A stretch of DNA of 64,000 nt from Methanospirillum lacunae (GTDB lineage: Archaea; Halobacteriota; Methanomicrobia; Methanomicrobiales; Methanospirillaceae): the NCBI RefSeq assembly GCF_003173355.1, contig NZ_QGMY01000001.1, positions 1 to 64,000 on the forward strand, read 5' to 3'. Below, in pieces: positions 47,993 to 53,829 of the stretch; the stretch's first letter is position 1, and every line of letters begins with the position of its first letter. The translations under genes and the position numbers were made by a program. The notes under the pieces were generated by a model that saw nothing but the letters and a program-made list of their open reading frames with translations, had not been told where the DNA came from and did not search any database.

Positions 47993-48145
47993 TATAAGGT
48001 GCCAGACAGTTGCAATTCGCTGCAACTCAGATCAACCCTTTTGATACCTTTAAACCCTTACCATACAATACGTCAATCAGTACAAAACTGACTACTCCAT
48101 ACTGAAAGATATGGGAATGTCACCGATCCAAAGCCGGGAATATTG

Positions 48146-48955
48146 ATGACGGACCAAAGGAGTAAACCTGAATCGTATCACAATATCGATCTCTCCTTTT
48201 TTACTCATAACGGGGGGATAAGGGCAAACAATGAGGACAGCCTTCTAGTTGATGATTTAGTGATATCGGACAGATCCATGGACAAGCCACTCTCTCATCA
48301 GATGACAGGGAAAGATATCATCTGCTGTGTCGCAGACGGGATTGGTGGTTCTGAAAAAGGAGAGGTTGCCAGCAATCTTGTTCTCTCTGCTCTCAGAAAC
48401 CAGGAAAAAGCGATTGATAATGAGGAATCACTCGGATTTGCCATTGCTGAAGGAAAGGAATTACTGGAAAAGTATGCACTTGACAACCCAGATGCAGTAA
48501 ATTTAGGCTGCACTCTTGCCGGGATCTCCATCTTTGGTGATTCAGCGATTGTATTCAACGCCGGAGACTGTAGGGTGTATCGGATCAATGGCAACTATTT
48601 CGAACAGATTACCAAGGATCACTCGGTAGTCCAGGTTCTCTTCGAGGAAGGGATCATTAATGAGGATGAGATGAGGTACCATCCGAGAAGAAACGTAGTC
48701 ACCTCGTCGGTATCGGGTGATGGAAACCCGAACTCAGTCAAACTCTTTTTTACGAAAATTCCGGTAAGGATGTCTGATGTTTTTTTTATTTGTTGTGATG
48801 GGATATGGGGGTGTTTTTCACACGATGAACTCGAACTTATTTACCAGCGGTTTAAAGGGTACGAATTCTGTGAAAAACTCCTGGGCGCCGCAATAGCGAG
48901 AAAGGCATCAGATAATATCTCTGCAATTCTCATCCAGATATCACCAGTTACATGA
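48146..48955 (+). CDS. PP2C-family protein phosphatase
   Basis: The protein of about 269 residues has the bacterial PP2C layout: GGIRANNEDSLLVDD (first metal Asp), CCVADGIGGSEKGEVAS, NAGDCRVYRI, CDGIWGCFSHDEL and the closing KASDNISAILIQ. All aspartates needed for two Mn/Mg ions appear present. It should reverse phosphorylation by the next gene. A TTG lies one codon before ATG 48146. The stop overlaps the kinase start as ATGA. Confidence 0.95.
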   Translation: MTDQRSKPESYHNIDLSFFTHNGGIRANNEDSLLVDDLVISDRSMDKPLSHQMTGKDIICCVADGIGGSEKGEVASNLVLSALRNQEKAIDNEESLGFAIAEGKELLEKYALDNPDAVNLGCTLAGISIFGDSAIVFNAGDCRVYRINGNYFEQITKDHSVVQVLFEEGIINEDEMRYHPRRNVVTSSVSGDGNPNSVKLFFTKIPVRMSDVFFICCDGIWGCFSHDELELIYQRFKGYEFCEKLLGAAIARKASDNISAILIQISPVT

Positions 48956-51900
48956 CATCACCCCCAGAAGATCCACCAACCATCAGAGAAGGGTTGAATC
49001 CTGATATCAGGAAAGAAAAGGTCATCTCGAGGGATATTGCAGAATATGCCGAGCCAGAGCCTATCAGTGGTGAATTCAGGGGATACCGCCTTATAAGGCA
49101 GTTTCCTGCTGCAGGAGGAGAAGCTGATATCTGGCTTATCCACAAGGATTCCGGTTATGGAGTTCTGAAACATTACCGGCTCGGTATAGAGCCAAAACCT
49201 GATGTTCTTGAGACAGTTGCTGCAATATCACATAAGAATCCCCGTCACCTGGTACGGATTCACTCATATGGATTTGATGAAGCCACAAACCGTTGGTATG
49301 AGATCCAGGAGTACGCTGGAAATGGATCACTCAAGGATCTTATCAGGAACCAAACCATCGGGATGAGTCAGTTCAGGAGCATTATCGGAGAGATAACAGA
49401 GGGTCTTGAATCCCTTCACCAGTCAGGAATTCTCCATCTTGATCTCAAACCATCAAACATCCTGATACGAAGTCTGCGACCACTGAACCTGATCCTCATC
49501 GACTTCGGGATATCAACGCTTCTGCAGAATGAATTTTCCAGACAGGTAACAAGTACGAAAGGAACCCCGATGTACTGGGCACCTGAACAACTGGGCAATA
49601 TTGTAGGAAAGGAGGCTGATTACTGGGCTCTGGGCGTGATAGCACTTGAGATCTTCACGCACAAACACCCCTTTGACGGGATGAACCATAATGTCATCCT
49701 TGCTACCCTCTCAACACGGGGGATCCAGATCCCATCAGACATTCATCCAAAAACTGCAAACCTGCTAAAAGGACTTCTGACAAGAAACCCACGCAGGCGG
49801 TGGGGATACAGAGAGGTTTCAGCATGGCTTGCAGGCAGGCAGAATATACCGGTTTTCTATGAGGTTGAATTCTCTTCAGGTAACAGAAAGAATCAGTATG
49901 AATTCAGGGGAGAATATTATGGCAGCCTGCAGGATATCTCATATGCATTAATCTCGGATCCCGAAGCATGGGATGATGCAAAGCGGCATATCGGAAGAGG
50001 ATATCTGAACCGGTGGCTTGAGAAGACAGAGCAGTACGGCAAAGCTGTTGAGATAGAAAAACTTGGAGAGCAGTATCCTGACGAGGATGAACGGCTCATC
50101 TTCCTTGCTGCACGATACAACCCATCGGTTCAGTTTGCATTTCTCGGAAAGCCGCTCGATGTTTCAAGCATTACAAGTTACCTTGACAGGTACATGAGAC
50201 ACCAGAACGATGAACGAGAGAAGAGAATCATCTCGATGCTCTTTTCAGGTGAACTTAACAGGATTTACCTGACTTTTTCCGAAATCACCGGAGTTCATGA
50301 TGGGACATCGCAGATCTCGCAGATGTTTGCATGGCTCTTATCAAATCCCAGGGGAACAGATGAAAAAAAGCAACTCTATGATTACCTCAGTATTCTCAAA
50401 GAACGTGAGGAACTCGGTAGTCCTGAAGAGTGGGACACAAAGGCTGTACTCCGTCTTGCGGAGATCAGGAATCTCTTTTCAAAGAATGGATACGATGTTG
50501 ATTCTGTCAGGATCCGTGATGAACTAAAAAATGCCTGCAAACATGCTCTCCAGTCAGATTCATGTGAACCCGATCTCCTTGTTGCCCTCGCATCAGCAGC
50601 AGAAGAAGCAGAACTCTTTGAATTTGTCTCTCCGTGCCTGAAAAAGGCAGCAACCACAGATATCAGAGTGATCAGTCTTCTCTTCAGTAAAAAGAAAGGG
50701 ATGTTCAGGTTCAAACTCTACAAACGGATGAGGATGGAGTATGAGAAAAATCTCTATTCAATCTCTTCTGATCCCTGGAGAGAGACACCTGAATTCTGGC
50801 AGAGCCAGTTTTTTAGTTTAAGAGGAGATAACGCCCTGCCTCTGGCAATATCAGTAGCTGAACGCCTAGTTGAGACTGATATGTTTCGCATTCAGGGATT
50901 AGTTATGCGTGGGTGCGCTTTAGCACAAATAGGACGGGTAAAAGAGGCGGAGTTCTTTTTTTCACATCCAGATCTCCTGTCATCTCATGACCCGGATGTC
51001 TGGCAGATCCTTGGCAAATGTCATATCTGGACAGGGAGGACAGAAGATGCAAAACAGGCTTTTTTGAAAGGTCTGACATTCAAAAAAGATCACAAGGGAC
51101 TCCTCAACGACATGATGAAACTTTCAGGTTCGCAGAAGACCCAGACCCAGGTACTTGAGACTTATGATGAGGCATTGGGCAGAGATCCTGATAACCCGGA
51201 ACTACTTCGAAAAATGGCTGATACTCTCTTTTCAATCGGTAATATCGGGGAAGCGATGACTGCATATGAACAGTACATCAGAATATGTCCGAAAGATAAC
51301 GCAGCCAGGATATCTCTTGCACGCTGCCAGATAAAACTCAAAAAGACCAGTGAGGCAGAAGAGGTTATAAAACCCATATTAGAATCAGGAATCGCTGATC
51401 CACAGGTATATCGCCTGAAGGCATATTTACTCCTTGTAACCGGAAAGGTCAGAGATGCCATCAAGTATCTTGACCTGGCTCTTGAAAGTGAACCAGAAGA
51501 TGAATGGACAATAAAAATAAAGGCTGATGCACATCTCGCAATAAAGGAGTTTGGTCCTGCCTTACGCTCTATTAATAAAATTCTTGGAACGGATCCCCAA
51601 AACTTCCTTTTTCTAGAGAAGCAGGGTAAGATTCTTCTCTCGCTCGGATTTTTTACTCCTGCATTGGAATCACTAAAAAGTGCAGTAAATGGAGGCCGAA
51701 ATTCCATTGAACTCTGTATTCAGTATGGCGATGCATTGAGACGGGCAGGTGATGATCGATATGGATCGCTGAAAGATGTACATGAGGTCACCGGACATTT
51801 ACTGAAATGGAGAGTCAGCTCTCTTTACCTTGATCTCTGGGATATAGAAAGAGTCGTTCCCGGTCAGATTGAACGGTTTATGGAGGCAGCAGAATGGTAT

Positions 51901-52371
51901 GAACGGGCATACAACCTTGGTGGAGAGGAGTCGGTTATCAGAAACAGGAAGGGAATCATCGCTGCCCTGCTTGGGAATTATGAAGAGGCGATCACAGCTT
52001 TCAGAACAGCAGCCGATACACAGAAGATGCAACCTGCATACCGGACAAACCTGGCTGTTGCCTATGTCCTAAAGGGTGAGATAGAAAAAGGAATCGGCAT
52101 ATTTCTTCAGGGGATGAGCAAATTCTCTAAGGTTGCCCAGTTCCTTGATCAGTGTGCAGGAATGTACTTTCACTATATCGGAGATGATGAAACCGCACTC
52201 GACCTCTGCTCTCAAGCAGTAAAAGCGAATACCACAAGAGATCCTAATATCCTATATCATCAGTACCTGGCACTCTCCAGGATGAATCAGACAGAACGAG
52301 CAGGTAATGTTAGTACGATGATTCGCCGAATCGATCCCTGGTTCAGATTATCGGGTTCTGATTCTGGATAA
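48952..52371 (+). CDS. Ser/Thr protein kinase with long TPR-like C-terminus
   Basis: The 1139-residue protein has a Hanks-type kinase domain at 45-310: Gly-rich AAGGEADIW, ATP-binding Lys73 in GVLKHYRL, catalytic HLDLKPSN (Asp164), DFG (184-186) and the activation/APE region GTPMYWAPEQ. It is therefore predicted active. About 800 further residues are helical, with clear TPR units around 640-850 (LGRDPDNPELLRKMADTLFSIGNI). No membrane helix. It is translationally coupled to the upstream PP2C gene and shares the strand with the FHA gene. Confidence 0.95.
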   Translation: MTSPPEDPPTIREGLNPDIRKEKVISRDIAEYAEPEPISGEFRGYRLIRQFPAAGGEADIWLIHKDSGYGVLKHYRLGIEPKPDVLETVAAISHKNPRHLVRIHSYGFDEATNRWYEIQEYAGNGSLKDLIRNQTIGMSQFRSIIGEITEGLESLHQSGILHLDLKPSNILIRSLRPLNLILIDFGISTLLQNEFSRQVTSTKGTPMYWAPEQLGNIVGKEADYWALGVIALEIFTHKHPFDGMNHNVILATLSTRGIQIPSDIHPKTANLLKGLLTRNPRRRWGYREVSAWLAGRQNIPVFYEVEFSSGNRKNQYEFRGEYYGSLQDISYALISDPEAWDDAKRHIGRGYLNRWLEKTEQYGKAVEIEKLGEQYPDEDERLIFLAARYNPSVQFAFLGKPLDVSSITSYLDRYMRHQNDEREKRIISMLFSGELNRIYLTFSEITGVHDGTSQISQMFAWLLSNPRGTDEKKQLYDYLSILKEREELGSPEEWDTKAVLRLAEIRNLFSKNGYDVDSVRIRDELKNACKHALQSDSCEPDLLVALASAAEEAELFEFVSPCLKKAATTDIRVISLLFSKKKGMFRFKLYKRMRMEYEKNLYSISSDPWRETPEFWQSQFFSLRGDNALPLAISVAERLVETDMFRIQGLVMRGCALAQIGRVKEAEFFFSHPDLLSSHDPDVWQILGKCHIWTGRTEDAKQAFLKGLTFKKDHKGLLNDMMKLSGSQKTQTQVLETYDEALGRDPDNPELLRKMADTLFSIGNIGEAMTAYEQYIRICPKDNAARISLARCQIKLKKTSEAEEVIKPILESGIADPQVYRLKAYLLLVTGKVRDAIKYLDLALESEPEDEWTIKIKADAHLAIKEFGPALRSINKILGTDPQNFLFLEKQGKILLSLGFFTPALESLKSAVNGGRNSIELCIQYGDALRRAGDDRYGSLKDVHEVTGHLLKWRVSSLYLDLWDIERVVPGQIERFMEAAEWYERAYNLGGEESVIRNRKGIIAALLGNYEEAITAFRTAADTQKMQPAYRTNLAVAYVLKGEIEKGIGIFLQGMSKFSKVAQFLDQCAGMYFHYIGDDETALDLCSQAVKANTTRDPNILYHQYLALSRMNQTERAGNVSTMIRRIDPWFRLSGSDSG

Positions 52372-52531
52372 TTGAAGCATTCGTGCTGGATTAGCCTGAA
52401 CCAAGACAACACAATGCTCAATACTGATGAGATGAAGTATTACATACCAAAACATATGTCTGGTGGCACTATCTGCTCCTCTCACCAGAAAGGTACATAA
52501 AAATAAAATTTTCGCGTTATTTGGCACAGAT

Positions 52532-53032
52532 ATGACACTGAAGAAGATTTGTGATGTATGCGGGATGGCCAACCCACCTACCGAGATAATATGCCAGAGA
52601 TGCTTCACTGATCTCACCAAAAAACGACCAGTTACAGGAAATTCCCCTACAAAGCCCATGAGTCAGGCAACAGGACGAAAGTCGCACATCATATTCATGG
52701 GTAAACCTCAATTTGATCAGGATAAAACAATCAGAGAGGTTGCTCCTCTTTTGCTTGTAATGTCACCAGGTCAGATCATCACCATCCATCATGGAGATAC
52801 AATAGGGCGTGAAGCAATTGGGGGCAGAATATTAAACCAGTACAGTGCAGTCTCCCGCAATCATGCATCGTTTAAATACACAAATGGAAAGTGGCTGGTA
52901 AAAGACGAAAACTCCACAAATGGGACGTATATCAACGGAACAAAACTTCTCCCTGAAAAATGGTATGAGATTATGGTAAATGATACCTTCTCGGTCTCAT
53001 CAGGTTGTAACTTCACGGTCCAGTTCGGATGA
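52532..53032 (+). CDS. Zinc ribbon-FHA domain protein
   Basis: The 166-residue protein has an N-terminal zinc ribbon (Cys 7, 10, 21, 24; CDVCGMANPPTEIICQRC), a linker, and a C-terminal FHA domain: GREAIGG, SAVSRNHASF and ENSTNGTYINGTKL. FHA domains bind phosphothreonine, so it is a likely reader of the neighbouring kinase. The frame opens at GTG 52463, but ATG 52532 matches the ribbon start. It overlaps the next gene as ATGA. Confidence 0.95.
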   Translation: MTLKKICDVCGMANPPTEIICQRCFTDLTKKRPVTGNSPTKPMSQATGRKSHIIFMGKPQFDQDKTIREVAPLLLVMSPGQIITIHHGDTIGREAIGGRILNQYSAVSRNHASFKYTNGKWLVKDENSTNGTYINGTKLLPEKWYEIMVNDTFSVSSGCNFTVQFG

Positions 53033-53829
53033 ATGTTGATCTTAAAGATATTGTTTCTTCATTTTGTACAGAAAAAAATATCCCGCTCGTCGGATATGCT
53101 GCATCCAACAGATGGGAACAGCCACTCTTTGAACCCTGGATTCCGGCTGATTTCTACCCACATCATATTCTTCCTGAAACACGAAGTGTCATTGTAATCG
53201 GGCTGCCTGTTGCCCTTCCGGTGCTTGAGACCTCCCCTTCAATCTGGTATCACGAACTCTATAAGACTGTCAACTCCCTACTCGATCAATATACAGTTCA
53301 GCTGGCATCCCTTCTATCTCGTGCAGGTTTTCCATCAGTTTTTGTTCCTAGAGACGGATACGGGAGCATTGAAGTGCTGCAGAAGAATCCGGTCGCATTT
53401 TTCTCACACCGTCATGCAGCAGTTCTTGCCGGCCTTGGGAGATTCGGGGTGAACAACATGGTGCTCACAAGGGAGTTCGGACCGAGAATCAGGTTTGGAT
53501 CAATCTTTACAACTGCACTGATTCCATCTGATCCTCTTGTTGAAGATGAACTCTGCATACATTGCAACAAGTGTGTTAGCTTATGTCCGGCAAATGCACT
53601 TAAAGAAGGAGACTATCCCCTCGTTCTCACAGACAAACCGGCCTGCACAACACAGAGTGCATCTCTCAATAAGAGGTATATTTCACCATGTGGAATCTGC
53701 ATCAAAGTCTGTCCCATCGGAGAAGACCGGAGAGTCTTCCACCGGGGGAATACCGGGATCTATGAACCGGGGTCTGATACAGATCTTTTCCATGGATGGG
53801 AGCATGTCAGGAAGTACGGGGGGAAGTGA
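53029..53829 (+). CDS. QueG-like iron-sulfur protein (epoxyqueuosine reductase family)
   Basis: The 266-residue protein resembles the Fe-S half of epoxyqueuosine reductase. HRHAAVLAGLGRFGVNNMVLTREFGPRIRFGSI is typical of this family, followed by two cluster motifs: CIHCNKCVSLCP and CGICIKVCPIG. Archaea use archaeosine rather than queuosine, so the substrate is probably something else. Its start overlaps the FHA gene by four bases. Confidence 0.85.
   Translation: MNVDLKDIVSSFCTEKNIPLVGYAASNRWEQPLFEPWIPADFYPHHILPETRSVIVIGLPVALPVLETSPSIWYHELYKTVNSLLDQYTVQLASLLSRAGFPSVFVPRDGYGSIEVLQKNPVAFFSHRHAAVLAGLGRFGVNNMVLTREFGPRIRFGSIFTTALIPSDPLVEDELCIHCNKCVSLCPANALKEGDYPLVLTDKPACTTQSASLNKRYISPCGICIKVCPIGEDRRVFHRGNTGIYEPGSDTDLFHGWEHVRKYGGK

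Follow-up and report, generated by a model that had tools for sequence, protein, structure and literature searches.

In the PknG-GarA/OdhI system of Actinobacteria, disordered N-terminal autophosphorylation sites of the kinase serve as anchors for the GarA/OdhI FHA domain, and the C-terminal TPR couples the signal to the substrate (PMC8546545). In Sulfolobales, the FHA protein ArnA acts with kinases and the phosphatase PP2A (PMC6509490), and FHA proteins have been reported as conserved among archaea in Crenarchaeota only (PMC10470591). In this study, we analysed pieces of a 64,000-nucleotide (nt) stretch of Methanospirillum lacunae DNA (the window; coordinates are on its + strand), which carries a PP2C phosphatase, a Ser/Thr kinase, an FHA protein and an iron-sulfur (Fe-S) protein. 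A preliminary description had read these four genes as a writer, eraser and reader set for phosphothreonine in a methanogen, coupled to an electron-transfer protein. The results showed that the phosphothreonine core is real and conserved, with an unexpected bacterial kinship, and that the emphasis placed on the Fe-S protein fails. The PP2C/kinase/FHA system is related to known kinds; the motif common to the kinase tail and the FHA linker is a new observation. No paper describing this gene set was found, although absence from the open-access literature is weak evidence.

The four open reading frames lie on one strand and appear functional. They encode, in order, a PP2C-type Ser/Thr phosphatase of 269 amino acids (aa) (the eraser; 48146..48955; Pfam PP2C, 7e-12), a Hanks-type kinase of 1139 aa with a C-terminal alpha-solenoid/TPR region (the writer; 48952..52371; Pkinase, 2e-36, plus TPRs), a zinc ribbon-linker-FHA protein of 166 aa (the reader; 52532..53032; FHA, 6e-14), and a double 4Fe-4S cluster protein of 266 aa, which is a lineage-specific neighbour (53029..53829; Pfam Fer4, 9e-8). 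The order given in the preliminary description was correct, as were its ATGA overlaps at PP2C/kinase and FHA/Fe-S, its long TPR-like kinase tail and its methanogen host, here Methanospirillum. Its short kinase/FHA gap was not: the open reading frame list starts the FHA gene at GTG 52463, and because the start conserved in relatives is ATG 52532, the gap is 160 nt long and holds a conserved 33-nt block. Purifying selection was strong in all four genes when the window was compared with its sister genome G129 (nonsynonymous divergence, pN, 0.11-0.16; synonymous divergence, pS, 0.6-0.74).

The phosphatase scored 46 bits against a PP2C cut-off of 20.3, fell below the Stp1 equivalog cut-off (147 vs 230), and kept its metal-site motifs RxNNED, DGIGG, GDCR and DN in 9/9 Methanospirillum. 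The kinase catalytic domain spans about residues 45-297 (49084..49842); D164 and DFG 184-186, already described as intact, were invariant across 17 homologs together with K73 and APE, and the kinase is non-RD because its catalytic loop reads HLDLKPSN. Among the NCBIfam matches listed, its best kinase model was Stk1/PknB, at 80 bits vs a cut-off of 450. The AlphaFold2 (AF2) model showed a kinase domain followed by a solenoid, with a pLDDT of about 30 in N-tail residues 1-35, and a fold search of the Protein Data Bank with the kinase returned matches to kinase domains and TPR only, with low global TM-scores. In the FHA protein, four Cys and the motifs GR, VSRxHA and SxNGT were conserved; its best solved relative was ArnA (5a8i, E 6e-11), and it scored 20 bits against TagH (cut-off 120). 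Its AF2 model gave a pLDDT below 50 for the linker, residues 36-68, and an FHA fold from about residue 73.

The kinase and the reader have a short motif in common. The kinase N-tail showed little conservation apart from T-[IL]-R-[ED], which was present in 9/9 Methanospirillum (0.11 expected by shuffling); in the window it is TIRE at residues 10-13 (48979..48990), a candidate autophosphorylation and FHA-docking site. The same TIRE occurs at T66-E69 of the FHA protein (52727..52738), where the disordered linker immediately precedes the FHA domain, and TIREV was found in the linker of 9/9 Methanospirillum. T66 was conserved in 11/12 aligned FHA sequences, bacteria included. The broader pattern T-[ILV]-[RK]-[ED] was present in 13/18 bacterial kinase tails, in up to three copies, vs 0.36 expected by shuffling, and related rows in these motif counts are not independent of one another. 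Both the tail and the linker sites were predicted to be disordered. Among the further archaeal kinases, FHA proteins and PP2C proteins inspected, none had the motif in a tail or linker, the one match being internal to a 1673-aa kinase. The motif looks like a site of kinase autophosphorylation and FHA docking.

This arrangement resembles PknG-GarA/OdhI in several ways: the window kinase has a disordered N-tail with candidate phosphothreonine sites, a kinase domain and a C-terminal TPR, and its partner is a small FHA protein in which a disordered segment carrying a threonine motif precedes the FHA domain. It differs in that the system is archaeal, lacks a rubredoxin domain, carries a zinc ribbon on the FHA protein and has PP2C in the same operon, and in that docking is predicted. 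No PknG model was among the 25 NCBIfam matches listed for the kinase, and the kinases nearest to it come from Synergistaceae and Nitrospirae; since it is not a PknG member by sequence, the likeness is one of working, not of kin. The resemblance to PknG-GarA tail recruitment is apparently convergent, an independent case.

We then compared the cluster across 12 Methanospirillum genomes, the window genome being G000. A PP2C ortholog was present at the cluster in nine of them, and in those nine PP2C, kinase-TPR and zinc-ribbon/FHA were linked, in two layouts. Clade A (the window, G129, G121 and G126) has PP2C, a kinase of about 1139 aa and FHA, with a PP2C/kinase overlap of 4 nt in 4/4 genomes, and then the Fe-S gene in 3/3 genomes where the contig reaches it (G000, G129 and G121; in G126 the contig stops within FHA). 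Downstream of Fe-S, gene content differs between the window and G129, and the block itself is kept. Clade B (G120, G122, G123, G125 and G130) has PP2C, a 535-aa coiled coil, a kinase of about 865 aa, a 600-aa ClpB-like AAA+ and FHA, without the Fe-S gene; the AAA+ gene is missing in G125 and split into two open reading frames in G123. The AAA+ proteins of Methanospirillum (L062, L065, L066 and L116) retained Walker A, but Walker B had changed from LFDE to LFEN, the GYVG pore loop was gone and the sensor 1 TSN was lost; judged by these residues, they are probably pseudo-ATPases in decay and on the way out. Neither the coiled-coil gene nor the clade-B-type AAA+ gene was found in the window genome, where the sole AAA+ match was an ordinary 870-aa Clp-like paralog. 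The coiled-coil and AAA+ genes of a larger ancestral module have apparently been lost from the window clade; the preliminary description had overlooked both their presence in the sister clade and the bacterial relatives. The kinases of clade A exceed those of clade B by about 270 C-terminal TPR residues (window residues about 860-1139), an extension that coincides with the loss of the two genes.

Outside the genus, no kinase ortholog turned up in a sample of 119 other genomes of the order, where the full-kinase search gave only TPR and generic kinase-domain matches, and no kinase relative was found among viral contigs. A kinase-alignment scan of 84,980 species genomes recovered relatives in one Nitrospirae metagenome-assembled genome (MAG) and in Synergistaceae MAGs; the contig scan used two peptide patterns, so the distribution of relatives is a lower bound. 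The kinase domains of the bacterial relatives scored 193-307 bits with the family model, vs at most 55 for other archaeal kinases. In the kinase tree, Methanospirillum, Synergistaceae and Nitrospirae grouped together (96/98), apart from the remaining 14 archaeal kinases in the tree, with an outgroup order that is unsure owing to long branches elsewhere. The kinship extends to gene order. Two termite-gut Synergistaceae loci (L123 and L131) read, tightly ordered, kinase(s), coiled coil, AAA+, radical SAM, FHA and PP2C, with the radical-SAM gene confirmed in both, and three further Synergistaceae loci (L124, L126 and L132) have AAA+, FHA and PP2C with a kinase. In all five, kinase, AAA+ and PP2C are family members (AAA+ E about 1e-100 to 1e-114). 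A 44-kb linear plasmid of the clostridial rumen bacterium Aristaeella lactis (L176) reads DUF4011, kinase, coiled coil, FHA, radical SAM, AAA, PP2C, DUF6273 and kinase, and its kinase tails have repeats of T-[IV]-x-N instead, e.g. TTINPD and ETIIN. From these comparisons we infer that the core descends from a larger bacterial kinase/coiled-coil/AAA+/radical-SAM/FHA/PP2C module and, likewise, in which direction genes moved between the two domains.

Taken together, we consider it rather probable that the core works as a phosphothreonine relay along PknG-GarA/OdhI-like lines, drawn from a bacterial module, with the Fe-S gene a late addition. The kinase would autophosphorylate T10 in its tail, and the zinc-ribbon protein would dock through its FHA domain on this phosphothreonine, which has an acidic residue at +3. 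The docked kinase would then phosphorylate T66 of the FHA protein, and phospho-T66 would fill either its own FHA domain (a closed state, as in OdhI/GarA) or that of a neighbour (an oligomer), altering what the reader binds. PP2C would reset the switch, and the TPR solenoid would have an input or scaffold function. Over time, the AAA+ protein would have decayed and then been lost in Methanospirillum, and the Fe-S gene would have joined the operon late in one clade. The writer-eraser-reader part of the preliminary description is supported by the linkage of PP2C, kinase and FHA across the genus and in Synergistaceae and by the candidate docking motif common to kinase tail and FHA linker. Several points weigh against this relay. 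The strict motif is lacking in 5/18 bacterial tails, and Synergistaceae FHA linkers usually keep the threonine and not the acidic +3 residue. We set the pattern with the Methanospirillum sequences already in view, which leaves the bacterial tails as the sole, partly independent test. The AF2 alignments were shallow (12 and 17 rows), with a pTM of 0.41 for the kinase model, and it is from sequence features and gene order that we infer phosphorylation, docking and output. A wider account is conceivable and put forward tentatively: a cross-domain module of kinase, coiled coil, ClpB-like AAA+, radical-SAM, zinc-ribbon/FHA and PP2C, in which the kinase tail attracts the FHA reader through a repeated short phosphothreonine code, would have arisen among bacterial defence-like sets, passed to Methanospirillum, shed its AAA+ and become a house regulator. 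The code would be T-[ILV]-[RK]-[ED] and its lineage variants.

The Fe-S gene bears on a different account, raised in the preliminary description, in which the four genes would form a dedicated redox circuit with the Fe-S protein as the target under control of the kinase/PP2C/FHA set. The FHA/Fe-S ATGA overlap was retained in three species despite saturated synonymous divergence, and the link may be meaningful within clade A, the overlap having been kept. However, orthologs of the Fe-S protein (58-61% identity) lie outside the cluster in six other Methanospirillum (G120, G122, G123, G124, G125 and G128), in a neighbourhood that was conserved where examined, with a methyl-accepting chemotaxis protein or a peptidase on one side and an ABC protein on the other; the FHA/Fe-S link is therefore a clade A event. 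In G130, the PP2C-kinase-FHA core was kept and a close Fe-S ortholog was absent, and in the clade A species the Fe-S protein lacks the T[ILV][RK][ED] motif. With these observations such a circuit is quite improbable. On gene order, the Fe-S gene is a lineage-specific late arrival in one clade and not part of the conserved core; the search for conserved gene order suggested with the preliminary description found the three-gene core kept across the genus and the Fe-S gene placed elsewhere, leaving the electron-transfer protein unsupported as a general regulated target. Its QueG-like label is a resemblance only, at 43 bits against a curated cut-off of 200: the match to solved QueG was limited to residues 125-193, and the protein resembles QueG and reductive dehalogenases only across the cluster domain. 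We also considered the clade A Fe-S gene as the missing radical-SAM partner and rejected it, because it had no significant homology to the bacterial radical-SAM protein (E 0.11).

Two further accounts take the core itself as something else. Like Sulfolobales ArnA, its best solved match, the window reader has the order zinc finger, flexible linker and FHA, and it would be set by a kinase and a phosphatase, as ArnA is; it could be a regulator that controls transcription (motility or stress). In the window, however, PP2C takes the place of PP2A, kinase and phosphatase are of another kind, the reader shares an operon with the kinase and carries a threonine motif in its linker, the RanBP2-like finger is a candidate only, and the vWA partner gene (ArnB) was found neither in the window cluster nor in the other clusters examined; we regard an ArnA-like role as unlikely. 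The reading as a defence (conflict) system that is active to this day, with the kinase as sensor of invasion, draws on the relation to Mokosh and MADS: in PADLOC the kinase matched mad6 best (6e-43) and also MkoA, the latter within kinase-domain residues 92-293 only. Rhizobium plasmids carry AAA+, radical SAM and a kinase/AAA-domain fusion, and a Moellerella conjugative plasmid (L179) and two archaeal genomes of the same phylum (G391 and G244) carry AAA+, radical SAM and coiled coil without the window kinase, accompanied by an SF1 helicase and a large PIN-domain protein (a weak PIN match in L161). Related modules thus adjoin DUF4011 or SF1 helicase and PIN genes, so the AAA+/radical-SAM part appears to be used in defence-like settings, with kinase/FHA/PP2C as one of its add-ons. 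The window cluster, in contrast, has no nuclease, helicase or toxin-like effector gene and lacks the pairing of kinase with SF1/DUF4011 helicase that defines Mokosh; it is retained across the genus and not patchy, its AAA+ is degenerate or lost, and the other gene content is housekeeping, with phosphoenolpyruvate (PEP) carboxylase upstream. Present-day defence is accordingly a poor fit and hardly likely. The conflict systems described in PMC7159879, of the vWA/MoxR type and a GAP1-N2 set that combines kinase, PP2C and vWA, were considered and differ from the window set. As separate observations, the SF1 helicase in L179 is MkoA-like by PADLOC, and the gene set of L161, L162 and L179 is a candidate conflict system common to archaea and conjugative plasmids. 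The type VI secretion system has a threonine phosphorylation pathway, PpkA-PppA-Fha with ClpV. The window set shares with it the linked kinase, PP2C and FHA genes, and related clusters a Clp-type AAA+; unlike that pathway, no secretion genes were seen in the clusters, and the FHA protein is unlike TagH.

The non-coding parts of the locus hold two candidate elements. Upstream of PP2C, conserved letters mark TGATACCTTTAAACC (48042..48056) as a candidate promoter of the PP2C-kinase unit; TGATACCTTTA was kept there in three clade A genomes, with diverging flanks. The 33-nt block in the kinase/FHA gap (52410..52442) contains the dyad AATACT-N10-AGTATT and had two variable columns across four clade A species. 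It occurs once per genome in the four clade A genomes and is missing in the remaining eight Methanospirillum genomes. An Rfam scan of the gap gave no match, and the block is not unusually stable as RNA; it may be an operator or promoter element. Elsewhere in the window genome, we noted two further FHA-kinase pairs and one further PP2C-kinase pair (L003, G000:C9, about 18-20 kb; L071, G000:C2, about 148-151 kb; L007, G000:C2, about 231-233 kb); the genome therefore has several phosphothreonine circuits, and the window operon is one of them.

Few archaeal kinase-reader circuits are understood, and the window set adds a genus-wide euryarchaeal circuit with a precise candidate docking motif. A bacterial defence-like phospho/AAA+ module may thus be pared to a signalling core. 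If true, the relay would be an apparently independent instance of the PknG-GarA logic of tail recruitment.

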